Below, piece by piece: positions 1 through 36,867 of a stretch of DNA of 36,867 nucleotides (the first letter of the stretch is position 1; each line of letters begins with the position of its first letter). The position numbers and the translations under genes are program-made. Below the pieces are notes generated by a model that had not been told where the DNA came from, ran no database searches, and saw only the letters and a program-made list of their open reading frames with translations. The stretch is from contig JAIBBF010000027.1 in the NCBI GenBank assembly GCA_019694795.1, positions 1 through 36,867 on the forward strand. Direction: 5' to 3'. Source of the stretch: Flavobacteriales bacterium. Its GTDB lineage: Bacteria > Bacteroidota > Bacteroidia > Flavobacteriales_D > UBA2798.

Positions 1-798
1 CAATGGCCGGCGCTTTCGGGTACTTTCGTTACCACTTCTGCTTCTTACGATCAGCATGTGGAATCGATTTACGGTGGTATTGGATTATTAGTGACCAACG
101 ACAAAGCCGGTGAAGGAACCCTGAATACAACTACTGTTTCCGGAATTTATGCTTATCAATTAAAACTCGGTAGAAAATTCTCTTTACGTTTCGGTGTACA
201 GGCTACTTATTTCCAAAAATCGCTCGACTGGAGCAAGCTCACCTTTGGTGATATGATTGACCCTCGTCGCGGTTTCGTTTACCAAACCGGAGATGTACCA
301 CGCGGAGGATCGGTTGGTAATGTTGACTTCTCTGCAGGTGTTCTCGGTTTCTCCGAAAATTTTTACATCGGATTTTCTGCGCATCACTTAACTGAACCGA
401 ATGAATCATTAGTTACAGGAAACAGTCCGCTGCCCATGAAAATTTCTGGTCACGCCGGTGCAGTTATTCCTTTAAACAACAATAAATACTCTACCAACGA
501 AGCAACGATTTCGCCGAATATCATGTATCGTTCGCAAGGCACCTTCCAGCAATTGAATATGGGATTGTACATCAATACCAAAAACATTGTGTTTGGAGCA
601 TGGTACAGAAATAAAGACGCATTTATTGCATTAATAGGTATCCAGACCGATGTGGTTAAAATCGGATATTCCTATGATGTAACCATATCGAAATTGACCA
701 ATGCATCGGGTGGATCTCATGAAATTTCCATGGGAATCAACATTCCGTGTAAACCTAAAAAGCGGAGTTTCAGAACGATAAGCTGTCCTTCGTTTTAA
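1..798 (+). CDS. PorP/SprF-family type IX secretion membrane protein (5' truncated)
   Basis: The frame is open from the first base of the window, so the N-terminus and signal peptide lie outside it. The visible start, QWPALSGTFVT followed by SYDQHV and a GGIG turn, is the typical early part of PorP/SprF proteins. The rest alternates aromatic/hydrophobic strands with glycine turns, as in an outer-membrane beta-barrel. Known family members are T9SS-associated and often help attach adhesins or cargo at the cell surface; the exact partner here cannot be read from sequence. The gene ends with TAA, 81 bases before gldJ on the same strand. The GTG at base 58 should not be taken as the start because homologous sequence precedes it. 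Family confidence is high; orthology to porP or sprF specifically is open, since Bacteroidota carry many paralogs. Confidence 0.88.
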   Translation, partial: QWPALSGTFVTTSASYDQHVESIYGGIGLLVTNDKAGEGTLNTTTVSGIYAYQLKLGRKFSLRFGVQATYFQKSLDWSKLTFGDMIDPRRGFVYQTGDVPRGGSVGNVDFSAGVLGFSENFYIGFSAHHLTEPNESLVTGNSPLPMKISGHAGAVIPLNNNKYSTNEATISPNIMYRSQGTFQQLNMGLYINTKNIVFGAWYRNKDAFIALIGIQTDVVKIGYSYDVTISKLTNASGGSHEISMGINIPCKPKKRSFRTISCPSF

Positions 799-867
799 TT
801 TGACAAAAATTTGTAACCAAAGAAGTAACATCTACTTATAAAGTAAAATTCAGCAGGAATATTAATT

Positions 868-873
868 AAGGAG
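868..873 (+). promoter_or_regulatory. Shine-Dalgarno-like AAGGAG before gldJ
   Basis: A purine-rich AAGGAG lies 3 bases before one ATG (877) and 6 bases before a second in-frame ATG (880). The spacing favours 880. Strong SD motifs are uncommon in Bacteroidota, and none of the other starts examined in this window has such a clear one. Confidence 0.5.
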
Positions 874-879
874 AAAATG

Positions 880-2826
880 ATGAAGCAGACGAGTTTAAGA
901 TGGTTTGGAGTTGCAGTAGCAGCGACTCTTTTTGTCTCTTCTTGTAAGTATGAAACCTCCCCTGTTACCGGATGGGATTATAACAATCCGGATAATGGTG
1001 GTTATCAAAGGGTTCCTTACGAAGAGCAGGAAACCGGTCCAGGTTTGATCCTCGTGGAGGGAGGAACATTCACTATGGGACGTATCGAGCAGGATGTGGT
1101 TCATGACTGGAACAATGTTCCCCGTCGTGTTACTGTATCATCCTTCTATCTGGATGAAACTGAAGTAACCAACTTCAACTGGTGCGAATACTTGTACTGG
1201 TTGAAACGTGTTTATACAGAGTTCGGTCAGATTTACATCAATGCATTACCTGATACATTGGTATGGCGTGAAAAACTGGCTTACAATGAACCATATGTAG
1301 AATATTACCTGCGCCACCCGGCTTACCGCGATTATCCGGTGGTTGGTGTTAGCTGGTTACAGGCAAATGAGTTCTGCGCATGGAGAACTGACCGTGTAAA
1401 CGAATATATTTTGATTCGCGAAGGCGTATTGAACTGGGATGCTACCCAGCCTAACGATCCATTTACTACAGATGAGTATTTGAGTCAGCCTGGTGGTGTA
1501 GCACACTCCAATGGTGTTGAAAATTTATTGGTTGACCTTAACAAGCAACAAAATCCGGGACCAGGTAAAAAAGGTAAAAAAGCCTTAGGCCGTCGTCACG
1601 TTCGTATGGAAGATGGTATTCTTCTTCCACGCTACCGCCTGCCAACTGAGGCTGAGTGGGAATACGCTGCTTATGGTCTGATCGGTAACTCTATCGAAGA
1701 ACGCGTTGTAGAACGTCGCTTATATCCTTGGAATGGTCACTGGGTACGTAACCCGGAGGCTAAATGGCAAGGTGAAATGTTAGCTAACTTCGTTCGCGGA
1801 CGTGGTGACTATATGGGTGTTGCCGGTAAACTGAACGATGCTGCTGACATTACTGCTCCGGTAACTTCTTACTGGCCTAACGATTACGGTCTGTATAACA
1901 TGGGTGGTAACGTATCTGAGTGGGTAATGGATGTTTATCGTCCTTTAACTTCTGAAGATGCAGACGAATTCCGTCCATTCCGCGGTTCTGTTTTCAAAAC
2001 CAAAGTGCTTAACTCAGAAGGTATTGTTGACAACAAACACGAAGAAACCATTTATGATATCGATGCTATGCGCATTTATCTGGATTCATTCCGTGTTGCC
2101 CGCAGAAATGCAGATCGTTTAACCATGGAAGAAGATTCATTAATGGGCTTCCTGATTGACATCGTGGACTCAGCGATCACCGTTAAAAACAGCTTCCGTG
2201 CATCTTACAAATACAAGCACAACCCTGTTCGTGAAAACGAGCAAATGATTCAGGCTTCTATTATCATCCGTGAGATCTTCGACGCTGCTTTAGTTGACTT
2301 TGAAACCAATCTTCAGGATTCTGATCCGAAATATGAAAACTATCAAATCGAAATCATTCCGGTGATTCGTGTTAAGATGGCAGATTTCGTGATTAACACT
2401 CCGGGTAATATCAAATGGAGAGAAGTTACTGAAGAGGAAAATCTGGATCGCAGAAACTATCGCAAATCAGACAATATCGACTATTTAGATGGTGATATCG
2501 CTTCTTCTCAGTTGTACAACAACTCGAAAGAAATCGAAAACATCAACACCGACAAACGCTGGCAGGAAAACATCATGTACCAAAACCGTTTCGAAGGTGT
2601 AAATCGTCACGATAACTCTTCTACTCCAACCACGTTAGTAAGTAACCGCACACGCGTTTACAAAGGTGGTAGCTGGAGAGACCGTGCCTACTGGATGAAC
2701 CCTGGTACTCGTCGCTACCTCGATGAGCGTCGCGCTACGGCTACCATCGGATTCCGTTGTGCAATGGATCGCCTTGGAAGTCCAATCGGATTAGGCGGCA
2801 AGAAAAAGAAGAAAAAGAAAAAATAA
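880..2826 (+). CDS. gldJ: Gliding motility / type IX secretion lipoprotein GldJ
   Basis: This is a lipoprotein of the FGE-sulfatase (SUMF1-like) fold. An N-terminal signal ends in a lipobox (FVSSC, Cys about residue 22). The fold opens with LILVEGGTFTMGRIEQDV and continues with YLDETEVTNFNW, RLPTEAEWEYAAYG, LYNMGGNVSEWVMDVYRP and closes near residue 600 with YKGGSWRDRAYW and GFRCAMD. A roughly 200-residue insertion (about 370-575) sits between the last two blocks. Insertion and motifs fit GldJ better than its paralog GldK. In Flavobacterium johnsoniae GldJ forms part of the gliding track and stabilises GldK. The upstream gene is a PorP/SprF-like barrel; gldKLMN are not in the window. The C-terminus is a run of eight lysines encoded by an A/G-only tract. 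Codon use (GGT, GCT, CGT, AAC) suggests strong expression. A terminator follows within 9 bases. GldK is the alternative assignment. Confidence 0.82.
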   Translation: MKQTSLRWFGVAVAATLFVSSCKYETSPVTGWDYNNPDNGGYQRVPYEEQETGPGLILVEGGTFTMGRIEQDVVHDWNNVPRRVTVSSFYLDETEVTNFNWCEYLYWLKRVYTEFGQIYINALPDTLVWREKLAYNEPYVEYYLRHPAYRDYPVVGVSWLQANEFCAWRTDRVNEYILIREGVLNWDATQPNDPFTTDEYLSQPGGVAHSNGVENLLVDLNKQQNPGPGKKGKKALGRRHVRMEDGILLPRYRLPTEAEWEYAAYGLIGNSIEERVVERRLYPWNGHWVRNPEAKWQGEMLANFVRGRGDYMGVAGKLNDAADITAPVTSYWPNDYGLYNMGGNVSEWVMDVYRPLTSEDADEFRPFRGSVFKTKVLNSEGIVDNKHEETIYDIDAMRIYLDSFRVARRNADRLTMEEDSLMGFLIDIVDSAITVKNSFRASYKYKHNPVRENEQMIQASIIIREIFDAALVDFETNLQDSDPKYENYQIEIIPVIRVKMADFVINTPGNIKWREVTEEENLDRRNYRKSDNIDYLDGDIASSQLYNNSKEIENINTDKRWQENIMYQNRFEGVNRHDNSSTPTTLVSNRTRVYKGGSWRDRAYWMNPGTRRYLDERRATATIGFRCAMDRLGSPIGLGGKKKKKKKK

Positions 2827-7080: not shown

Positions 7081-8757
7081 ATGAATTTTGCGGAGATCAA
7101 GTTGCGTTTGGAGGAATATTTAAAGCATCCGAGTTTTGAAGAAATCATGAATGATGCCGGAGATTTAATCCGGGATTTTCAACATCTCGTAGAAAAACAT
7201 CCTGTACGTGCCGAAACCGGTGAAGAAGGAGAATATGATACGAGTTACGATTTCATTGAGGAAATCCGTGAAATGGTAAAGGACTACCGTGTTCGTCGTG
7301 AAGAACTGCGCAAGAATAAAACGGAATCTGAAAAATCGAACCTGAAAGAAAAACAAGCGATTCTTGCTGAGATTTTAAGGGTAATCAGCGAAGAAGAAAA
7401 TATTTCGAAAGCCTATCAGCAATTCAACGATTTAAAAGATAAATGGAGAAACATTGGTTCTGTTCCTTCAGATAAACATCACGATATTCAACGCGAATTT
7501 TCCCGTCTCTCGGAATTGTTCTATTACAACATGAACATTTACAAAGAACTTCGCGAAAACGATCTCAAAAAAAATACGGGATCGAAAATGGAATTGGTGG
7601 ATAAACTGATTGCTCTGGCCGAGAGTAACAGTCTGCGCGATCTGGAAGGTGGACTAAGAGCTGTTCAACGCGAGTGGGATCATACCGGTGCCGTGCTGAA
7701 AGAAAAATGGGAAGATATCCGGAATCAGTATTGGGATTTGGTGAAAAAAGTGGAAGATAAAATCCATTCACTTCGTGAAGAACGCGAGAAAAAACAAGAA
7801 GAATTTTTGGCCGCTAAACGTCGGTTAGTCGAAAAAGCCAAAGAAGTAGCAGCGCGGGAAAATACCAACCAGAAAGACTGGGAAAAACATACCGAGGAAT
7901 TACTTGCTCTGCAAAATGAATGGAAGACCATTGGTTTTGCCGCGAAAGAAGAAAATGAAAAAATCTGGCAGGAATTCAGAAGTGTGTGTGATGGATTTTT
8001 CGCTTCGAAAAAAGAATTTTTCGGTGAACTGAAAAATGTTTTCGATGAGAACAAGAAGAAGAAACAAACGCTGATTGAAAAAGCGGAAAAATTAAAGGAC
8101 AGCAATGATTGGAAGGAAGCCGGAAATCAACTGATTCAATTGCAAAAAGAATGGCAAAAAATCGGATCTGCCGGTAAAAAAGCAGAACATCCTTTATGGC
8201 TTCAATTCCGTGCTGCCTGCGATGCGTTTTTTAATCGCAAAAAAGAACATTTTGCAGCACAGGATTTAGCCCTGGAAGAAAATCTCCGCAAAAAAGAAGC
8301 ATTCATTGCTTCATTAGCGAGCATGGAAATCACAGGCAGCGATGAAGAAAAAATCGCACGGTTAGGCGCTATCAGCAAAGAATTCTCTTCACTTGGCGAA
8401 ATCCCCATGAAAGAAAGAGAACGCGTTTCTAAAAGCTTTAGAACTGCCCTGGAAGAGCTTTCACAGAAAATCAATATCGACCCCAACCTCAAGGAGACTA
8501 CCTTATTGAAATCGAGAATTGCGGCATTGCAACAATCGGACAATGCGGAATATTTATTAGCGAAAGAAAAACAACAAATCCGCGATAAGATCAACCGCAA
8601 TAATGAGGAGATCATTAAGCTGGAAAACAACATGGGATTCTTCGGTAATTCCAAAGGTGCCTCTGAAATGCTGAAGGATTATCAGGTTAAAATTGATGAT
8701 TTGAAAAAGCAAAACGACAGCCTGAAAGAAAAACTAAAACTCTTTCCAAAAAAATAA
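7081..8757 (+). CDS. DUF349-repeat coiled-coil protein
   Basis: The 558-residue, lysine- and glutamate-rich, mainly helical protein has about five DUF349 units, each built around an LxxEWxxIG-type turn: KDKWRNIGSVP (about 115-125), REWDHTGAVLKEKWE (about 197-212), NEWKTIGFAAKEENEKIW (about 280-297), KEWQKIGSAGKKAEHPLW (about 355-375), and a diverged one, KEFSSLGEIPMKERERV (about 430-446). A C-terminal coiled coil (about 490-558) ends the protein. No signal peptide or membrane segment is visible, so it is cytoplasmic. The function of DUF349 proteins is not established in Bacteroidota. Two long antisense frames over this gene are by-products of its AAA/GAA-rich codons. A terminator follows directly. 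Confidence 0.92.
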   Translation: MNFAEIKLRLEEYLKHPSFEEIMNDAGDLIRDFQHLVEKHPVRAETGEEGEYDTSYDFIEEIREMVKDYRVRREELRKNKTESEKSNLKEKQAILAEILRVISEEENISKAYQQFNDLKDKWRNIGSVPSDKHHDIQREFSRLSELFYYNMNIYKELRENDLKKNTGSKMELVDKLIALAESNSLRDLEGGLRAVQREWDHTGAVLKEKWEDIRNQYWDLVKKVEDKIHSLREEREKKQEEFLAAKRRLVEKAKEVAARENTNQKDWEKHTEELLALQNEWKTIGFAAKEENEKIWQEFRSVCDGFFASKKEFFGELKNVFDENKKKKQTLIEKAEKLKDSNDWKEAGNQLIQLQKEWQKIGSAGKKAEHPLWLQFRAACDAFFNRKKEHFAAQDLALEENLRKKEAFIASLASMEITGSDEEKIARLGAISKEFSSLGEIPMKERERVSKSFRTALEELSQKINIDPNLKETTLLKSRIAALQQSDNAEYLLAKEKQQIRDKINRNNEEIIKLENNMGFFGNSKGASEMLKDYQVKIDDLKKQNDSLKEKLKLFPKK

Positions 8758-11144: not shown

Positions 11145-11164
11145 TTGAAGAAAACCTTCTTCGA
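11145..11164 (+). other. Short hairpin touching the start of the PKD-protein gene
   Basis: TTGAAGAA and TTCTTCGA pair over eight positions (one G-T) around AACC, reaching the A of the ATG at 11164. There is no T run, so it is not a classic terminator. It might slow translation initiation; it is short and AT-rich, so it may be incidental. Confidence 0.3.
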
Positions 11165-12447
11165 TGAAAAACATTCTACCCGCTGTATTCGCGTTTTTTT
11201 TCGCGGTACAATTTTCTCTTGCACAGAATTCCTATTGCGATTCGACCGGTAACGTAGTTATTTTCTCCAATTACGATGGCGGAATTTTAAACATCAATGT
11301 GGATGTGGACATTCCGAATTTAAAAATTGGAATTACTACTTACGAAGCCGCACAAATCAACATCAGCGGAACCTATGCCTCGAATGTTACCGAAGTTGTT
11401 TATGCCGGCTACATTGGCACGAATGATAATTGCGGACTCGGCGTAACCAGTGTCTCCATCAACGGTGCGGGAACTGCAACCACCAATATTCTTCAATATC
11501 CCGCTGCGACTATTAGTAATCCGAATGGCTACAATTATATCATTTGTGCCTATAGTTGCGACATCAACACCAATCAGGGAGGATGCAATACGGTGGACCA
11601 GATCAGCGGATTTTTTCTGAATCACTTCGGTGGATCATTGCTGATGCATCAAACCAATTACAATTGCTGGCAACCTGCCGTTACACGAAATATTTCTTCC
11701 GGTGGAAATTGTTGCATTACTCCTCCCCTTCCTCCCAATGCAAATTTTACAGCGAGCAACACCACCATTTGTGCCGGCGATTGTATTGACTTTACCGATC
11801 TCTCTGCCAACGCACCTACTATGTGGAACTGGTCCTTCCCCGGAGCATCCACTACTACGTCGGGCAACCAGGATCCAAGCGGAATTTGTTATCCCACTGC
11901 AGGAAATTATACGGTAACGCTCACTGCGGGGAATGGACAAGGCAGCAGCACGCACACAATGAATATCACTGTAAATGCAAATCCTTCTACTCCGGTCATC
12001 ACTCAAAATGTTGGCGTATTATCCACCAGCGGCGGCATCAGCTACCAATGGTTCCTCAATGGAAATCCGATCTCGGGTGCGAATGCATCTTCTTACACGC
12101 CGACATCCAATGGAAGTTACACAGTTGAAATTAGCGATGCCAATGGTTGTACAAGTGTTTCATCTGCATTTGCGTTTAATAGTCTATCAGTAGATGAAAA
12201 CGCCTGGAATGAAATCACCCTACAACCCAATCCGAGTCAAGGCTCGTTTAAAATTTCCGGTTGCAAAAATCTCTTACCTGAAAAGATTACCATTCTCAGC
12301 AGCGAAGGAAAACTGGTTTATTCGAAATCAATTCAATCAGAATCAGATTTAACCATTTTCAATTTTAACCTTGCTCCGGGAGTGTATTTTGTCGCCATGA
12401 AATTCGAAAGCGGGAACGCCGTGAAAAAACTTTTAATCACCGAGTGA
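11164..12447 (+). CDS. T9SS-exported PKD-domain protein with type A sorting domain
   Basis: The 427-residue protein begins with a clear signal peptide (MKNILPAVFAFFFAVQFSLA, cleavage before QN). After a Cys-rich N-terminal region of unknown type, residues about 193-270 form a PKD-like domain (ANFTASNTTICAGDCIDFTD, MWNWSFPGA, YTVTLTAGNG). Residues about 275-340 are Ig-like (ISYQWFLNGNPISGANASSY, GSYTVEISDANGC). The C-terminus (about 345-427) is a type A T9SS sorting domain: LQPNPSQGSFKIS, ILSSEGKLVYS, LAPGVYFVAM and a basic end KKLLITE. It should therefore be exported by the Sec and then the type IX systems and attached to or released from the surface. No enzymatic motif was recognised. It is separated by 62 bases from the WD40-caspase gene, which has the same orientation. 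Confidence 0.85.
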   Translation: MKNILPAVFAFFFAVQFSLAQNSYCDSTGNVVIFSNYDGGILNINVDVDIPNLKIGITTYEAAQINISGTYASNVTEVVYAGYIGTNDNCGLGVTSVSINGAGTATTNILQYPAATISNPNGYNYIICAYSCDINTNQGGCNTVDQISGFFLNHFGGSLLMHQTNYNCWQPAVTRNISSGGNCCITPPLPPNANFTASNTTICAGDCIDFTDLSANAPTMWNWSFPGASTTTSGNQDPSGICYPTAGNYTVTLTAGNGQGSSTHTMNITVNANPSTPVITQNVGVLSTSGGISYQWFLNGNPISGANASSYTPTSNGSYTVEISDANGCTSVSSAFAFNSLSVDENAWNEITLQPNPSQGSFKISGCKNLLPEKITILSSEGKLVYSKSIQSESDLTIFNFNLAPGVYFVAMKFESGNAVKKLLITE

Positions 12448-12509: not shown

Positions 12510-15500
12510 ATGAAGAAACTGATCTTCATTTTTGTATTTACCTCTCTTTATAATTGTGCTTTTTCGCAATTAAAATTTATTCCCCAAACGGGTCACGCCG
12601 GTTGGTTCGAAATGGAAATTGCTCCCGATGGGAAACGCATGGCCAGTGGTGGACCCGAAGGCAAATTAATTCTGTGGGATCTTTCTTCGTACAAAGCCAT
12701 CTGGCAGGAATACGGACATAAAAGTGCCGTAACAGCAATTGAATGGCGATTCGATAACCGTTATTTTCTCTCTGCATCGCTCGACTCCACCGTTCAGATT
12801 TACGATACGGAAGGAATGAAGAGTGTGATCACCTATCATCATTTTTACAGCGTAACAGCCGCTTCTTTTAATCCGAAAGCCGATTTGGTGGCCTATGGCG
12901 ATGATCATGGAAACATACTCATGTATCACCTTGTGAAAAATGAAGAAATAATCCGCATCAATGCAGGCTCGGAAATTACAGGATTAAAATGGGCTGCGAA
13001 TGGATTGGTGTTGTTTGCTTCTACAGCAGATCACGGAGTGATGGCCTATAGCATGGACACCGGAAAAAAAATTCTGGACATGGAAATAAAAAGCGGATGC
13101 AGCGGATTTCAATTAACGCCCGACAATTCCCTTTTACTCATTCACTCCAATGATGGAATCACTGAATTATGGCAGGCTACAACAGGAAAAAGTCTGGGAA
13201 GTGTAGAAAGTACGATCAGCAGTGATAGAAACGGAAATCAATGTTGGGTAGAAGCAGCAGGAACTTACGACGGAAAATTTGCAGTTACATTCGACAAAGA
13301 AAAACATTTAAAAATCGGTCACACCACCGAAGCAATGACGCTTATTTACAATACGCAAATGTTGCAGAGTGATATCCGGCTTATTAAGACAAGTCCCGCC
13401 AACAATCTTTTTGTGATGGCTGATGTTGACGGTGGAATTTGGATTTGCTTTTTTAATGAATCCGATTTTAAAGCTGAGCGTCGCCTATTCTGGCATAAAC
13501 TGTTGTATGAACCGGAACGCATCCACCAATTGTATTTCAGAAAAAATGACGACATCCTCACCATGAAAGGAGGATTTCAATACGATTTTAATTTCACCAC
13601 CGGCGATCTTTCCCGAAGAGAAGATGACTCTACCGTAGTAGAAAATACAAGTACGGTGATGCGCTATTTTTCTCCATCTAAAATGAAAGATGGCATTTAT
13701 TACGGGGTACATACAACCAGGGACCTGATGTATAAAATAGTTGGAGATAATGTTTTTTCCATTCCCATGTTTGCTTATACAGAGGATACTTCCATCATCG
13801 GGTATATCGATAACAAACAAGTCAATTTTTACCATCTGGATGAAGCCCGTTTTCTGCTACAGAAAAAAATAGATGATGCTTCCTCAACTATATTATTTAA
13901 CGGGACCTTGAATAATCGTTTTATACTTCAAGACAAAAAAGGATTGCACCTGATCGATTTAAAAACGAATTCAACCATCGATTTATCTAAATCGGCAAAT
14001 CATCAATACCGCTGGTTATCGTCCGACAATAACGGCAGTTTTATTCTTGCCGCAGATGAATCCGCTACGCTTCATCGCTGGGATCTTCCTTCGGGGAATT
14101 ACAAAAAATTAAGTGGTGATATTACCCAAAGTAAAATCGTGATTTTTGAGATTAGTCCCGACGGAAAAAAACTGGTAGCCGGCGAGCTGAATAAAAGCCT
14201 TAATGTTTACGATCTGGAAAGCGGGAAAAAAACAAATACGCTTAACGCAGATTTACCTCACTTAATGGCCATTTCCATTAGTAAAAACGGAAAATTTATT
14301 GCCCTTTCAGATTTAGATGGTGTAGTGCATGTTTACAGTTCAGATTTAACAAAAAACATCATCAACATCATTCCTTCTCCGAGCAATGGATTGTTAGCTT
14401 ATACACCGGATCACTATTACATAGCAACAAAAGAAGCCGCTCAAAATCTGGCTATGGTCAACGGCAAAAACAGTGTGGGATTCGAGCAAATCGATTTACG
14501 CTATAATCGTCCCGATAAAGTTTTAGCGCACATCGGAAAGGCCGATCCTGATTTAATCAGTGCTTACGAACGTGCATGGAAAAAAAGAATGGAGCGCAAT
14601 GGTATTAACAACACCCCACTCAATCCGGTAGTTCCTCAACTTACAATTCGTGATCTGCAAAAAATTCCTTTAACCACGGATCAGGATAATCTCAATTTAA
14701 CCGTTCAGGTAAAATCGGAATCGGAATTAAAAGCTGTTAAAGTTTGGGTGGAAGGAGTTCCGGTGTTTGGTAAAGAAGGTGTAGCCATTAGCGGAAAATC
14801 GGGCGAAAAAAATCTGAATATTCCCTTATTATACGGAACCAATAAAATTGAAATTGCCGCTATTGGAAAAGACGGAACGGAATCGGCCAAGGAAGAATTA
14901 TTGTTGATGTGTAAAAAAGAACAGAAACCGGAATTGTATGTATTGAGTATTGGCGTGAGTAAATACAAGGACAGTCGCTTTAATTTACAGTTTGCCGATA
15001 AGGATGCTAAAGATATTTCTTCTGTATTTTCTTCTACCAGTGCTTTCGCAAAAGTTCATCAGCAAACCATTACCAATGAGGAAGCCACCCGCGAAAAAAT
15101 TCTGGCTGCGAAAAAATTTCTACTGCAATCGAAAAAAGAAGATGTAGTGGTAATATTCGTTGCGGGGCACGGTTTACGTGATGAAAACCTGGATTATTAT
15201 TTTGCTACTTACGATATCGATTTCAATCATCCAGCCGAACGGGGATTATCGGATGTGGAAATGGAGAGCATGACAGATGGAATTGCCGCACTAAGAAAAT
15301 TATTGTTTTTTGATACTTGTCTAAGTGGTGAGGTCGACAAGAATGAAATTGAATCCGAATTAACCATGAATGCACCAGCCGAAAATGTTCAATTTAGAAA
15401 TCCGGGTGTTGGCTTAAGAAATAAAAACGGAATCGGTATTAAAAACGCTGCTTTCCTAATGAAGGAGATTTTTAATGATGTTAAACGCGGAACAGGTGCT

Positions 15501-15746
15501 ACCATTATCAGTTCTGCCGGTGGAGCCGAATTTGCGATGGAGAGTAAAGAATGGAAAAATGGTTTGTTTACTTATTGCCTGCTTAACGGAATGAAAAATA
15601 AAGCTGCCGATAAGGATAAAGATGGTGAAGTAAGTCTCAATGAAATTCAACGATACATCCGGAAGGAAGTGACCCAACTTTCCAAAGGAAAACAAATTCC
15701 GGATTTTCGTGCCGCGAATATGGAGCTCGATTTCAGAATGTGGTAA
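12510..15746 (+). CDS. Exported WD40-caspase (peptidase C14) protein with EF-hand-like loop
   Basis: The 1078-residue protein has a signal peptide (MKKLIFIFVFTSLYNCAFSQ). A first WD40-type propeller spans about 25-330 (blades ending LILWDL, VQIYDT, ILMYHL, TELWQA). A second spans about 440-620 (LHRWDL, LNVYDL, VHVYSS). An Ig-like linker (about 710-800) follows. The caspase-fold domain starts near residue 807 (LYVLSIGVSKYKD) with catalytic His887 in VAGHG and Cys937 in FDTCLSG. Near the end, residues 1034-1045 form a 12-residue DxDxDGxVxxxE calcium-loop motif. There is no T9SS sorting domain, so the mature protein probably stays in the periplasm or at a membrane. Caspase-like enzymes cut peptides after basic or acidic residues and some need calcium; the target here is unknown. 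ATG 12510 is preferred over TTG 12495. Its stop codon abuts that of the convergent metZ. Confidence 0.88.
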   Translation: MKKLIFIFVFTSLYNCAFSQLKFIPQTGHAGWFEMEIAPDGKRMASGGPEGKLILWDLSSYKAIWQEYGHKSAVTAIEWRFDNRYFLSASLDSTVQIYDTEGMKSVITYHHFYSVTAASFNPKADLVAYGDDHGNILMYHLVKNEEIIRINAGSEITGLKWAANGLVLFASTADHGVMAYSMDTGKKILDMEIKSGCSGFQLTPDNSLLLIHSNDGITELWQATTGKSLGSVESTISSDRNGNQCWVEAAGTYDGKFAVTFDKEKHLKIGHTTEAMTLIYNTQMLQSDIRLIKTSPANNLFVMADVDGGIWICFFNESDFKAERRLFWHKLLYEPERIHQLYFRKNDDILTMKGGFQYDFNFTTGDLSRREDDSTVVENTSTVMRYFSPSKMKDGIYYGVHTTRDLMYKIVGDNVFSIPMFAYTEDTSIIGYIDNKQVNFYHLDEARFLLQKKIDDASSTILFNGTLNNRFILQDKKGLHLIDLKTNSTIDLSKSANHQYRWLSSDNNGSFILAADESATLHRWDLPSGNYKKLSGDITQSKIVIFEISPDGKKLVAGELNKSLNVYDLESGKKTNTLNADLPHLMAISISKNGKFIALSDLDGVVHVYSSDLTKNIINIIPSPSNGLLAYTPDHYYIATKEAAQNLAMVNGKNSVGFEQIDLRYNRPDKVLAHIGKADPDLISAYERAWKKRMERNGINNTPLNPVVPQLTIRDLQKIPLTTDQDNLNLTVQVKSESELKAVKVWVEGVPVFGKEGVAISGKSGEKNLNIPLLYGTNKIEIAAIGKDGTESAKEELLLMCKKEQKPELYVLSIGVSKYKDSRFNLQFADKDAKDISSVFSSTSAFAKVHQQTITNEEATREKILAAKKFLLQSKKEDVVVIFVAGHGLRDENLDYYFATYDIDFNHPAERGLSDVEMESMTDGIAALRKLLFFDTCLSGEVDKNEIESELTMNAPAENVQFRNPGVGLRNKNGIGIKNAAFLMKEIFNDVKRGTGATIISSAGGAEFAMESKEWKNGLFTYCLLNGMKNKAADKDKDGEVSLNEIQRYIRKEVTQLSKGKQIPDFRAANMELDFRMW

Positions 15747-18511: not shown

Positions 18512-20608
18512 ATGAAGAAAATTCTTCTGTTTGTTGCATTGTCGGCTTCTTATGAACTGGCATTTTCCCAATGTAATTTATCCATCAATCCTTCGCAGGA
18601 TACCCTCAACTGTGGTGGTGGAAACGTGAACCTTCAAGCGGTTTCGAGCGGTGGTGGAACATTTGCACTGGCGAACGATTTCAACCTTGGAAATGCCGGA
18701 TCCGGATGGAATATTTCTCCTGCCGGTACCTTTACCAATCCATGCGGACCCGCTCTCGACGGAACGACCTATATGTGGATGGGTGACATGACCGCAGCCC
18801 CAAGAACATTGCAAACCGCCCCTTTGGATGTATCCTGCGGAGGCGATATTTGTTTCGATTTTAAAATGGCTGTACAGGGTCTTGGATCACCATGTGAAGG
18901 ACCCGATTTAACCAGCGAAGGAGTTTACCTGGATTGGTCGATTGACGGAGGTGTTACATGGACAACCATCAACTATTTCCAACCCAATCCCGGCGGATGT
19001 TTAAATTCTTCGAATGGCGGATCAGGTTGTGACGGCGATTATACTGCATGGGCGAATTATTGTTTTACCATTCCTCCCGTTGCGCAAACAACAACTACCA
19101 TTTTCCAATGGTGGCAAAGCGGAAGCTCCGGAAATTTATACGACCACTGGGGAATTGATAACGTAACCATTTCATCCCTGAATTGCTCCGGTTATTATTA
19201 CGACTGGACACACATTCCCGGTAGTCCGGATGATTCCCTCATTACAGAAAATATCACTACTACAACTACTTTCGATGTATTATATACCAATGGCGTAGAT
19301 GATACCTGTTATGCTTCCATCACCATTGTGGTTGACACTACACTTGATGTCAGTTTAACCTCCACAAACGAAACCTGCGACGATGCCAATAACGGAACCC
19401 TGGCCACAACTGTAGGAGGAGGATTTAATCCATACACGTATGTATTGGTAGGACCATCCGGCTCCAGTAATTCTACCGGAAATTTCAGCGGTTTAATTGA
19501 TGGAAACTACACCATGCAGGTAACTGATAATATCGGCTGCTACGGAGAACAAACCGTTACGATACAACCCGGAAATCCGTTGAGCGGAAATGCAAATACG
19601 GTATTAGAAAGTTGCAATGGCGCCAATGATGGATCGGCAACTTTAACCGGCAGTGGTGGAAATGGAAATTATACTTATGCAATCAGCGGACCTATCTCTG
19701 CAAGTAATTCAAGTGGAAATTTCATTGGATTACCTTCCGGAAATTATTCGGTAAACGTAACCGATAATCAGGGTTGTGCCGGTACCTTTACATTCACGCT
19801 GAATGCTGGTCCAACCGTTAACGGAAATATCAATACAACACCTGAAACCTGTTTCGAATACAACAATGCACTTGCAGTTCCATCTGCCAATGGAGGAACA
19901 GGTCCTTACACCTACATTCTTTCCGGTCCTGTTAACGACACCATTAGCTCAGGAAACTTCAACAATCTTCCTGCAGGTAATTATTCAGTTTTAGTTACTG
20001 ATGCCAACGGATGTACAGATGTACTCACGTTCACATTGAACAATGCAACTCCGGTGGTGGCAGACTTTACTGCATCACCAGTGGTGGGACCAGCACCTTT
20101 AACGGTGAATTTCACCAATCTTTCAACTGGAGCAACCAATTTCAATTGGATTTTCGGTGATGGCAACACCTCTAACGCCAGTGATCCGAGCAACACGTAT
20201 ACAACAGAAAGTACATTTACTGCCATCCTCATCGCATCGAATGGTCCTTGCGTTGACACGGCCATGATCGACATTACCACATTAACTTCTTCTTTCTTTT
20301 TACCCAATGTATTTTCACCCAATGGTGATGGAGACAATGATGAATTTGAATTCCAACCCATGAATGTGGTTTCATTAAGCGCACGTATTTACAATCGCTG
20401 GGGAACGCAAGTGGCAGAAATTACTTCTCCTACCGGAAAATGGGATGGAAAAGATAAAGGCGGAAAAGAATGTCCTGATGGTGTTTATTATTACGTTTTA
20501 GAAATCAACACTGCCGTTGAACCTACCGTTTACGATCCGAATCCGAGAGAATTAAGCGGAACACAATTTACCTTCAATGGAACGGTAACACTGATTAGAA
20601 AAAAATAA
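18512..20608 (+). CDS. SprB-repeat/PKD surface protein with type B T9SS sorting domain
   Basis: The 698-residue exported protein has a signal peptide (MKKILLFVALSASYELAFSQ). A Cys-rich N-terminal half is followed by three tandem SprB-like repeats of about 79 residues starting near 286, 365 and 444, each with an E-T/S-C start, a GNY core and (V)TD-N-GC end. A PKD domain covers about 511-592 (FTASPVVGPAPLTVNFTN, FNWIFGDGN). The C-terminal 100 residues (FFLPNVFSPNGDGDNDEF, IYNRWGTQV, WDGKDKGG, CPDGVYYYVL) form the gliding-motility-associated CHU_C/type B sorting domain. It is expected on the cell surface as an adhesin-like protein secreted by the type IX system, perhaps with a PorP/SprF partner. 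It is followed by a bidirectional terminator. Ligand unknown. Confidence 0.9.
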   Translation: MKKILLFVALSASYELAFSQCNLSINPSQDTLNCGGGNVNLQAVSSGGGTFALANDFNLGNAGSGWNISPAGTFTNPCGPALDGTTYMWMGDMTAAPRTLQTAPLDVSCGGDICFDFKMAVQGLGSPCEGPDLTSEGVYLDWSIDGGVTWTTINYFQPNPGGCLNSSNGGSGCDGDYTAWANYCFTIPPVAQTTTTIFQWWQSGSSGNLYDHWGIDNVTISSLNCSGYYYDWTHIPGSPDDSLITENITTTTTFDVLYTNGVDDTCYASITIVVDTTLDVSLTSTNETCDDANNGTLATTVGGGFNPYTYVLVGPSGSSNSTGNFSGLIDGNYTMQVTDNIGCYGEQTVTIQPGNPLSGNANTVLESCNGANDGSATLTGSGGNGNYTYAISGPISASNSSGNFIGLPSGNYSVNVTDNQGCAGTFTFTLNAGPTVNGNINTTPETCFEYNNALAVPSANGGTGPYTYILSGPVNDTISSGNFNNLPAGNYSVLVTDANGCTDVLTFTLNNATPVVADFTASPVVGPAPLTVNFTNLSTGATNFNWIFGDGNTSNASDPSNTYTTESTFTAILIASNGPCVDTAMIDITTLTSSFFLPNVFSPNGDGDNDEFEFQPMNVVSLSARIYNRWGTQVAEITSPTGKWDGKDKGGKECPDGVYYYVLEINTAVEPTVYDPNPRELSGTQFTFNGTVTLIRKK

Positions 20609-22550: not shown

Positions 22551-23270
22551 TCATGCGTGAAACAAACTCAAATCGTTTAATTTGATTTTGCCCTCATAGA
22601 TGGCTTTACCAATGATGCATGCGTACAATCCTTTCTCTCTTAAACGGTATAAATCATCCATCGATGCCACGCCGCCACTTGCAATCAGTTTTAGATTAGG
22701 AGTTTCATTCAAAATTTTCTCGTACAAAGCGAATGAAGGTCCTTCCAACATTCCGTCTTTGCTAATATCGGTACAAATGCAATATTCAATTCCCTTTTCG
22801 CTATAATCACGAATAAAATCATAAATGAATTCATCCGTTTCTTCCAACCAGCCGGAAACTGCAATGCGTTCGTTTTTTGCATCTGCTCCCAGAATTATTT
22901 TTTCGGATCCGAATTGGGAAATCCAGCTTAGAAATGTTTCTTTATTTTTAACGGCAATACTTCCGCCGGTAATTTGTTTTGCTCCACATTCAAATGCAAT
23001 GCGTAAATCGTTGTCGGATTTTAATCCACCTCCAAAATCGATATGCAGCGATGTTTCGTTGGCTATTTTTTCAAGGACTTTCCAATTGATAATTTTTCCT
23101 GCCTTTGCCCCATCCAAATCCACCAAATGCAAATTCCGAATTCCCGCATCCTGAAATTGCATGGCGATTTCGAGTGGATGCTCGTTATAAATTTTCTTCT
23201 GGCTATAATCGCCTTTGGTTAGCCGGACACATTTTCCGTCGATGATATCTATGGCAGGAATTAATCGCAT
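22551..23270 (-). CDS. hisA: ProFAR isomerase HisA
   Basis: The 239-residue TIM-barrel isomerase (Amadori rearrangement, fourth step of histidine synthesis) has Asp8 in [14 protein letters not shown] and Asp130 in [13 protein letters not shown] as the acid/base pair, plus DFGGGLKSD and [12 protein letters not shown] phosphate loops. It starts 13 bases after the stop of nspC and is followed by hisF after 14 bases. It is therefore very likely co-transcribed with the decarboxylase gene upstream. Confidence 0.96.
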
Positions 23271-34992: not shown

Positions 34993-36867
34993 TCAGGAAA
35001 TACGTATGGCTAAAACGCAAACATCATCAATTTGCTCATGGTTTCCTTTCCATTGATGGAATGCCTGATGAAGAAAGCTAATCAACTCAGCCGGATGATG
35101 TGAAGAACACGATTGAAGCACTTCTTTCAATCCTTTTACCCTCATTTTTTTTCCCCGGTCGCCACCAAATTGATCGGCATATCCATCGGAGAACATGAGC
35201 AATAAATCATTTTTCTGAAGAATAGTTTGATGGGTGGTAAAAGACTTATGAATATCCATTCCACCGATGGATTGTTTATCGCCCTGCCATTCGAGGATTT
35301 CCTGATTTCGGATAATCCATAGTGGATTATTTGCCCCTGCCCAGGTTAACCGATAATCGGAAGGATCGAAACAGGCGAGAGAAATATCCATTCCGTCGCG
35401 CACTTCTTCGCTCGATTTCGAAAATGTTTTTTCGACTCCAACTGAAACGGCGTCTAAAATTAATCCGGGATCGGTGACATGTTCTTCCAGAATGGTTTTA
35501 GACAATGCATTGGAACATACAACACTCACCATCGCCCCGGGAACGCCATGTCCGGTGCAATCTGCCACACCGAAAATAATTTTAGAATTCAACTGTTCCA
35601 GAAAGAAAAAATCTCCCGCAACAATATCTTTTGGCAAATACAAAACATCGGCTTCACCCAATGATCGTCGAAAATCTTCTATTGGAGGAAGAATGGCATC
35701 TTGTAATCGTTTGGCATAAGAAATTGAATCCAAAATCTCCCGGTTTTTTTCATCCACAATGGCCTTCTGAAATTCGATTTCCCGTTTTTGTAATCGTGTA
35801 ATCCGAAATCTGCGGTACAATAAAATGGCGAATACTGCAATGAGAATTAATGTAATTGAAACACTGATAATAATCAGGCGTTGCCGTTTACTCGCCTCGC
35901 GGTGTACAATTTCTTTTTGTTCCTGTTCTCTGATGAATTCATTTTCCTTCTTGGAGAAATTCAACAACATCGATTGTCGCACCGTTTCATCGCGGTTTTG
36001 CTGACTCTGCAACGAATCGCGCATGGTGATAGAAAGTTTATATAATTCAAGTGCCGATTTGTAATCGCCTTTTTTCTCTTTTACTCGTTCCATCATTCGG
36101 GCAGAACGCATAATTAATTCCGGATAACCCAACTCTTCTGCAATGTCTAAAGCCCGTTGTGCATGTTCTTCTGCTTTATTCATTTCGCCCTTTACCAGTG
36201 CAATTTCCGACATATTCTCATTGGAAAAAGCAATTCCCGATTTATCTCCCACTTCTTCGCGCAGTTGTAAACTTTGCGTATAGCAACGCAAGGCCTGGTC
36301 GTAATTTCCCACCGCATAATAGACCGATCCCATATTGGCAATGGCATAGGACATACTTCGTTTATCTCCGAGTTTTTCAGAATAATTATAGGATTTGATA
36401 TCATGTTCCAATGCCTGCTGATAGGCTTTCATGCGCTCGTAGAGATAACCAATATTGTTATGGACATAGGCCAATCCCTGCAAATCGTTCATATCCATAA
36501 AAATCGATTCCGAATTTTTATAGTACTCCATGGCTAATTCCTTATTTCCTAATTCATCATGCACACTGGCAAGATTTAAATAGCAATAAGAAGAACTTTT
36601 AAAATCGCCAATGGAATCGAGAATTCGAACACTGCGGTACAGGTATTTTACGGAGGTATTCATTTCTCCGAGTTGGTAATAAACCAGCCCGATATCATTG
36701 AGTGCCTCCGCTACATCGAGAGCTGATTGCAGGTATTCAAAAATAAATTTTGCCTTTTCGTATTCACTTTTAGCTTCAAAAACGGAACCTGAATTTTTCA
36801 GCAATATTCCGTGATGAAGATATTGGCGTCCCAATAAATACAAAACCCGATTATTGATTCCTTTATT
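34993..36867 (-). CDS. TPR-membrane-SpoIIE (PP2C) phosphatase, 5' truncated by window edge
   Basis: The frame runs off the window's right end, so the N-terminus is missing; 624 residues are visible. TPR repeats cover about residues 10-270 (for example LNDIGLVYYQLGEMNTSVKY, NIGYLYERMKAYQQALEHD, NMGSVYYAVGNYDQALRCY). A membrane helix (LIIISVSITLILIAVFAILLY) lies near 330-350, followed by a coiled coil. The SpoIIE/PP2C domain (about 395-624) has IVAGDFFFLEQL, ADCTGHGVPGAMVS, SDGYADQFGG and DDVCVLAI, with the expected metal-binding aspartates. This is a common Bacteroidota signalling layout: TPRs are likely periplasmic and the phosphatase cytoplasmic. Its substrate, perhaps an anti-anti-sigma factor, is not visible here. 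Confidence 0.92.
   Translation of the reverse strand, partial: NKGINNRVLYLLGRQYLHHGILLKNSGSVFEAKSEYEKAKFIFEYLQSALDVAEALNDIGLVYYQLGEMNTSVKYLYRSVRILDSIGDFKSSSYCYLNLASVHDELGNKELAMEYYKNSESIFMDMNDLQGLAYVHNNIGYLYERMKAYQQALEHDIKSYNYSEKLGDKRSMSYAIANMGSVYYAVGNYDQALRCYTQSLQLREEVGDKSGIAFSNENMSEIALVKGEMNKAEEHAQRALDIAEELGYPELIMRSARMMERVKEKKGDYKSALELYKLSITMRDSLQSQQNRDETVRQSMLLNFSKKENEFIREQEQKEIVHREASKRQRLIIISVSITLILIAVFAILLYRRFRITRLQKREIEFQKAIVDEKNREILDSISYAKRLQDAILPPIEDFRRSLGEADVLYLPKDIVAGDFFFLEQLNSKIIFGVADCTGHGVPGAMVSVVCSNALSKTILEEHVTDPGLILDAVSVGVEKTFSKSSEEVRDGMDISLACFDPSDYRLTWAGANNPLWIIRNQEILEWQGDKQSIGGMDIHKSFTTHQTILQKNDLLLMFSDGYADQFGGDRGKKMRVKGLKEVLQSCSSHHPAELISFLHQAFHQWKGNHEQIDDVCVLAIRIS

Follow-up and report, generated by a model that had tools for sequence, protein, structure and literature searches.

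We found that the Flavobacteriales bacterium contig JAIBBF010000027.1 (36,867 nucleotides, hereafter the window) encodes a caspase-type protein in which a signal-like N-terminus precedes two likely beta-propellers, a helical hinge, an Ig-like beta-sandwich and a C-terminal caspase domain carrying an EF-hand-type loop. Its gene is an intact open reading frame (ORF) of 1,078 residues on the forward strand (12510-15746), with an in-frame TTG five codons upstream. An earlier note, made from the sequence of this DNA, had described an exported double-propeller WD40-caspase protein with an intact His887/Cys937 dyad, and the WD40 and caspase architecture was confirmed by the ORF, by Pfam and by AlphaFold2 models; to that note we add the membership in a family, the export signals common to it, the EF-hand loop, the acidic S1 positions and a set of lineage-specific residues. 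We propose, giving the idea an even chance of being right, that the protein is a calcium-loaded, basic-specific cysteine protease of the periplasm or envelope that is aimed by its propellers. Upon export by Sec, an enzyme of the orthocaspase/metacaspase type would cut after Arg or Lys, the two propellers would bind a partner or substrate, and the hinge and sandwich would couple this binding to the caspase domain. The EF-hand loop, in the p10-like part of that domain, would bind calcium, so that the enzyme would have little activity in the cytoplasm, where calcium is scarce, and become competent once exported. As the propellers of the six related enzymes of this genome are very different while their catalytic halves are similar, each probably has a partner of its own.

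The caspase assignment is carried by matches to profiles as well as by structure prediction. The domain (residues 806-1078; 14925-15743) matched Pfam Peptidase_C14 at 812-1072 (E 2.6e-16; 60.4 bits, where the cut-off is 21.4). Its sole NCBIfam match was to the EACC1-associated caspases (NF047832; 813-950, E 1.7e-19), at 70.1 bits, far short of the 140 set as cut-off. The whole protein, modeled with 24 family sequences, reached a predicted local distance difference test (pLDDT) of 78.8, and the C-terminal 438 residues, modeled with all 94 sequences of the family set described below, gave a caspase fold at a pLDDT of 86.9 and a predicted template modeling score of 0.88. Upon structural comparison, the top-ranked match of the caspase part was GSU0716 of Geobacter sulfurreducens (3bij; Z 22.3 over 222 residues, 22% identity), a protein of 285 residues that, unlike the window protein, has no propellers; the MALT1 paracaspase (caspase-Ig3; Z 21.9, 16% identity, caspase part alone aligned) and Arabidopsis metacaspase 4 (Z 21.5) followed within one Z unit, and animal caspases were matched as well. 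The caspase fold that the earlier note had expected is thus present in the model. In MALT1, an Ig-like domain adjoins the caspase and Arg is taken at P1; in the window protein, by contrast, the sandwich precedes the caspase.

The catalytic His887 (15168-15170) and Cys937, together with Asp832 (15003-15005) and Asp935, were invariant in 94 of 94 family proteins, so the dyad claimed before not only lies where it was placed but is kept throughout the family. Asp935, Thr936 and Cys937 are encoded at 15312-15320. By profile alignment to Yca1, AtMC4 and 3bij, and not to TbMCA2 itself, Asp832 and Asp935 align with the acidic S1 pair of metacaspases and are the equivalents of Asp95 and Asp211 of TbMCA2. 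In the accessible text of two papers, this acidic pair is described as holding basic P1 side chains (PMC6426788; PMC4357240). Since both the dyad and the acidic S1 positions are invariant, cleavage after Arg or Lys at P1 is predicted. The caspase domains at two family loci (L081 and L120) read ASHG instead of AGHG in the catalytic motif, with the dyad kept.

Residues 1034-1045 (15609-15644) read D-K-D-K-D-G-E-V-S-L-N-E, which fits the pattern DxDxDGxVxxxE, and the model flanks this loop with helices at 1019-1029 and 1043-1058. We found a canonical EF-hand loop in 67 of the 94 members of the family and in none of 32 distinct C14 proteins from elsewhere in Bacteroidota (Fisher p 5.8e-14, a value that overstates independence because the family is related by descent). 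These controls came from 49 loci, 11 of which lacked the dyad motif; from the remaining 38 we removed 3 second copies and 3 proteins scoring at least 200 bits with the family profile, a line that was drawn after the run. Half of the controls (16/32) lie in frames of more than 700 residues. We suggest that the loop binds calcium and would activate the enzyme once it has been exported. The pairing of an EF-hand with a caspase is not unprecedented, as the accessible text of PMC6426788 reports an EF-hand motif in 7 archaeal orthocaspases; an N-terminal Ig-like Big_7 motif is described there in 15. By description, these proteins stand apart from the window protein in being archaeal and in that WD40 goes unnamed in the same text. 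The paper on MaOC1 (PMC7935541) contains no occurrence of calcium, Ca2+, arginine, P1 position or autocatalytic.

Export is suggested by the N-terminus, which reads as a Sec-type signal peptide (residues 1-19; 12510-12566) with a predicted cut after residue 19, before Gln20. This prediction comes from a strict home-made rule, not a validated predictor. The signal holds a Cys without a canonical lipobox, and that of the same-genus orthologue has no Cys. After excluding three of the 94 proteins that are cut at their 5' ends, the strict rule picked out 71 of the 91 remaining family genes and, among neighbouring ORFs of at least 300 residues, 106 of 267 (Fisher p 2.5e-10). Of the 20 family genes missed, 19 can be seen by eye to encode a hydrophobic stretch with Ala-, Ser- or Gly-Gln at its end; the remaining one, L130, looks lipoprotein-like. 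Applied to 13 other genes of the window, the rule marked three proteins with type IX secretion system (T9SS) domains and GldJ, and left nine unmarked, one of which encodes an NlpC/P60 protein that may be exported. A laxer rule, which had marked 71 of 75 family members along with 112 of 189 neighbours, was replaced by the strict one.

We rejected export of the window protein through the T9SS because it has no sorting domain: none was matched in NCBIfam at E 0.01, in a scan that does score such domains in the proteins encoded at 11164-12447 and 18512-20608, and none occurred among 25 of the 42 Pfam families matched. This agrees with the export signal without a T9SS sorting domain read from the sequence before. 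The T9SS translocon protein SprA was found in 10 of the 13 genomes holding family members and was not found in two Bacteroides records and one Dysgonamonadaceae record, for which genome completeness is not stated. As two family members of these SprA-negative genomes pass the strict signal rule, Sec is the most likely route out of the cytoplasm, and nothing points to the T9SS.

The two propellers differ in how firmly they can be assigned. For the first (residues 27-317; 12588-13460), Pfam gave strong WD40-type matches in the N-terminal third of the protein (WD40 at 65.4 bits), and the AlphaFold2 model aligned with seven-bladed structures, among them WDR5-type and Thermomonospora curvata propellers (Z ~33, 2.2-2.6 Å). 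The second, divergent region (residues ~325-651; 13482-14462) matched eIF2A at 520-652 (E 1.6e-7) and a NUP159-like family at 445-579 in Pfam, and in the whole-protein model it is all beta, with about seven strand sets counted by eye, and locally uncertain (pLDDT below 50 at 370-389 and 400-404). Structural alignments to double propellers had a high root-mean-square deviation (rmsd). The first propeller dominated, and indeed filled, the lists of structural matches to the whole model, so that other folds missing from them are uninformative. Hence the double propeller of the earlier note stands firmly for its first half, and two propellers are likely but, given the local uncertainty of 325-651, not proven. 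Apaf-1, a cytoplasmic STAND ATPase with tandem WD40 propellers tied to caspase control, was among the Foldseek matches; its alignment across both propellers was poor (rmsd 14.5 Å), and the likeness is one of analogy only.

Downstream of the propellers, the model and the family alignment place a conserved helical hinge at residues 653-700 (14466-14609), with the family consensus YPFEQFDLxYNRPDIVL ... AYxKRL. It leads into a beta-sandwich (residues ~710-802; 14637-14915) formed by strands of the model. The Ig-like linker proposed before thus holds as a modeled sandwich, with Pfam matches that fall below the cut-off.

Upon searching for relatives, we found that the protein belongs to a family within Bacteroidota. 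The genome holds seven C14 proteins. Six of them, including that of the window, have the hinge, sandwich and caspase half in common, and a divergent seventh is encoded on contig 16. At E 1e-20, 6 of 40 genomes (own included) gave a match, one of them via only a 76-residue piece at a contig end. At 1e-30, 17 of 392 phylum genomes (own included) matched the family profile; besides the own genome, one match spanned the whole model, one fell in two neighbouring frames and the rest were partial, ending near the catalytic Cys. In this latter search few candidates were scored in each genome and two of the six own copies went undetected, so it undercounts. Named genomes yielded no relative when the window protein was the only query, while a 24-row alignment yielded 486, the best 80 of which were kept as 78 loci. 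Where titled, these loci are from Bacteroidota, with many from Crocinitomicaceae and other Flavobacteriales and others from Bacteroidales, Cytophagales and Saprospiraceae; Crocinitomix algicola (L096) and C. catalasitica (L094) are among the named holders of the family. Eight were dropped as duplicates, and the other 70 made up the set of 94 together with the 24; the divergent C14 proteins L009 and L058 were left out of the family alignments. Five successive C14 matches lie within 15 kb in one Saprospiraceae genome (that of L098), on contig C36, with 19 genome-wide.

The pattern of divergence within the family is in keeping with a protease that stays constant while its recognition parts change. 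Against its five paralogues, the window protein showed identities of 10-19% in the propellers (from global alignment), 30-43% in the hinge region, 30-33% in the sandwich and 45-53% in the caspase domain; against the orthologue of the same genus, these were 53 and 49% in the two propellers and 60, 51 and 66% in the hinge region, sandwich and caspase domain, respectively. The juxtaposition of variable propellers and a constant protease makes it more likely that the propellers act as sensors of a substrate or partner, as we infer. In a quick tree, the own-genome copies are dispersed and four of them pair with copies of the genus-mate, for which reason the duplications look old; the window protein and its orthologue sit on a long stem (0.75).

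Several observations weigh against the proposed calcium-loaded, exported protease. On a fragment of the window protein, Pfam EF-hand_1 scored only 19.4 bits (E 7e-4) against a cut-off of 25.4. The canonical loop is missing in 27 of the 94 members, plainly so in some (L054), and also in a further near relative (L139), and calcium may hence be structural or dispensable. Regarding export, the home-made signal rule fires on 40% of the neighbouring ORFs, and L108, from one of the SprA-negative genomes, fails it, its N-terminus being hydrophobic nonetheless. Regarding the propellers, the identities to the distant paralogues may be out of register in the global alignments and therefore too low. Finally, Arg890 and Leu938 replace a conserved Leu and His beside the dyad, so the activity of the window lineage may differ from that of the family.

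The genes adjoining the family point to an alternative, in which the protein would be a periplasmic signalling protease working with TPR-SpoIIE phosphatases or kinases, or with exported-looking TPR-CHAT proteases, its cut being relayed to the cytoplasm or passed along a proteolytic chain. Among 115 same-strand neighbours within 200 bp at 95 loci, scanned with home-built profiles, SpoIIE proteins adjoin six family genes (L062, L078, L085, L102, L104 and L112) and CHAT proteins two (L081 and L128); Pfam agrees at L078, L085, L102, L104, L081 and L128. The corresponding chance probabilities, 0.002 and 0.005, are rough, as they start from the matches counted in 11 genomes (10-76 for SpoIIE and 1-6 for CHAT in each) and assume 3,500 genes. 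The association was moreover noticed post hoc, L085 and L102 are close relatives, and most family genes, that of the window included, have no such neighbour. A TPR-SpoIIE gene does lie in the window (34993-36843, reverse strand); we rejected it as a partner because 19 kb separate it from the caspase gene and the genome has 31 SpoIIE matches, of which it is one. We regard this signalling role as unlikely, if worth keeping in mind. A wider version, in which Bacteroidota would run several periplasmic caspases side by side, inactive until exported for want of calcium, then aimed by fast-diverging propellers and read out through SpoIIE-type phosphatases or CHAT proteases as a form of envelope caspase signalling, is speculative, and we consider it quite improbable.

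Other genes recur beside family members. A protein of ~260 residues with a signal-like start occurs at seven loci, near the caspase gene at four, with a lipoprotein-like gene directly before it at three; its genes lie 12-55 bp upstream of family genes at L079 (3136-4002), L072 (3226-4029) and L109 (3635-4420), and the L079 copy had no Pfam match. In five loci of one clade (L111 at 7319-7891, L118, L122, L125 and L137), a small protein with a hydrophobic start is encoded 8-34 bp downstream of the caspase gene, and the gene after it encodes a TonB-dependent receptor in the L118 copy. The window gene has neither a ~260-residue nor a lipoprotein-like gene as neighbour.

Its own upstream neighbour, a possible operon partner, encodes a PKD protein bearing a type A sorting domain of the T9SS (11164-12447, forward strand; Pfam and NCBIfam). 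This gene ends 62 bp before the caspase gene, a placement kept in the same-genus relative, where gene order is retained from 11164 to 22551-23270, the end of the compared stretch. The PKD protein resembles stretches at L113, L063, L131, L049 and L094 (26-37% identity). That the caspase gene directly follows a T9SS cargo gene would suit a protease that matures exported and T9SS proteins or controls their quality, and a PorP/SprF-family membrane protein and the gliding lipoprotein GldJ are encoded in the same window (58-2826, forward strand). Such a role would resemble that of gingipains and PorU, exported clan CD enzymes of Bacteroidota. Against it, family members occur in the three genomes in which SprA was not found, and the nearness to T9SS genes may be due to chance; we accordingly give this role a small but appreciable probability. 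The forward strand of the window also encodes a protein with a Reelin subrepeat, SprB repeats, a PKD domain and a T9SS type B sorting domain (18512-20608) and a 558-residue protein with five DUF349 stretches (7081-8757).

Residues near the active site raise the question of whether the caspase domain still cuts in the window lineage or has left a binding protein. Seven conserved positions of the C-terminal half are changed in both the window protein and its same-genus orthologue. Beside the dyad, residue 890 is Arg, where 89 of 92 other members have Leu, and residue 938 is Leu, where 91 of 92 have His; Asp915 replaces a Tyr found in 89 of 92 others, and Asp also stands at the aligned position in AtMC4, 3bij and Yca1. 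The two changes beside the dyad and the long stem would fit a loss of cleavage, yet the dyad and both S1 Asp residues are kept, and the caspase domain is more similar to that of the orthologue than the propellers are. We therefore think a loss of activity decidedly improbable; the lineage may instead have changed its substrate or control. Many prokaryotic caspases have been proposed to act as self-lysis executioners or defence effectors, and the fold shared with metacaspases and a weak match to the general caspase model of PADLOC (E 2.2e-7) speak for such a role here. Against it, the window genes scanned (a part of them by Pfam/NCBIfam, no neighbour by PADLOC) are metabolic, T9SS or signalling genes, and an exported protease would miss cytoplasmic targets; we consider this role very improbable, and a part in defence was not supported.

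WD40-caspases with likely signal peptides have already been published, and the family with hinge, sandwich and EF-hand loop is a variant of these. In the accessible text of a survey of 671 prokaryotic metacaspases (PF00656; PMC3501461), WD40 is the commonest partner domain (73 of 671), most of the 98 membrane-class sequences have an N-terminal helix, possibly a signal peptide, and Haliscomenobacter hydrossis (Bacteroidetes) holds 28 copies, so that exported, expanded WD40-caspases of Bacteroidota were foreshadowed there. The earlier view that caspase-WD40 proteins are usually regarded as cytoplasmic is therefore only partly right, as the accessible text of the survey notes the possible signal peptides and gives no location clue for 529 of the 671 sequences. 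Compared to the surveyed proteins as described in that text (PMC3501461), the window family adds the hinge, the sandwich and, often, the EF-hand loop, with the dyad kept in 94 of 94. No publication describing the family, or its hinge, EF-hand loop or export, turned up in a search that left most subscription journals outside. Another WD40 protein of Bacteroidota, PG1058 of Porphyromonas gingivalis, is not known to carry a protease domain. It is an envelope protein and a T9SS component, and the accessible text of the paper on it uses "WD40 repeat" three times (PMC5053529).

Discussion of prokaryotic caspase homologues has mostly centred on death or stress within the cell. A family with export signals, conserved catalytic residues and a frequent EF-hand loop would offer a test of an extracytoplasmic role for caspases and of their control by calcium. 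Furthermore, with six divergent paralogues that share a similar catalytic half within one genome, the choice of partner by the propellers would be testable by domain exchange.

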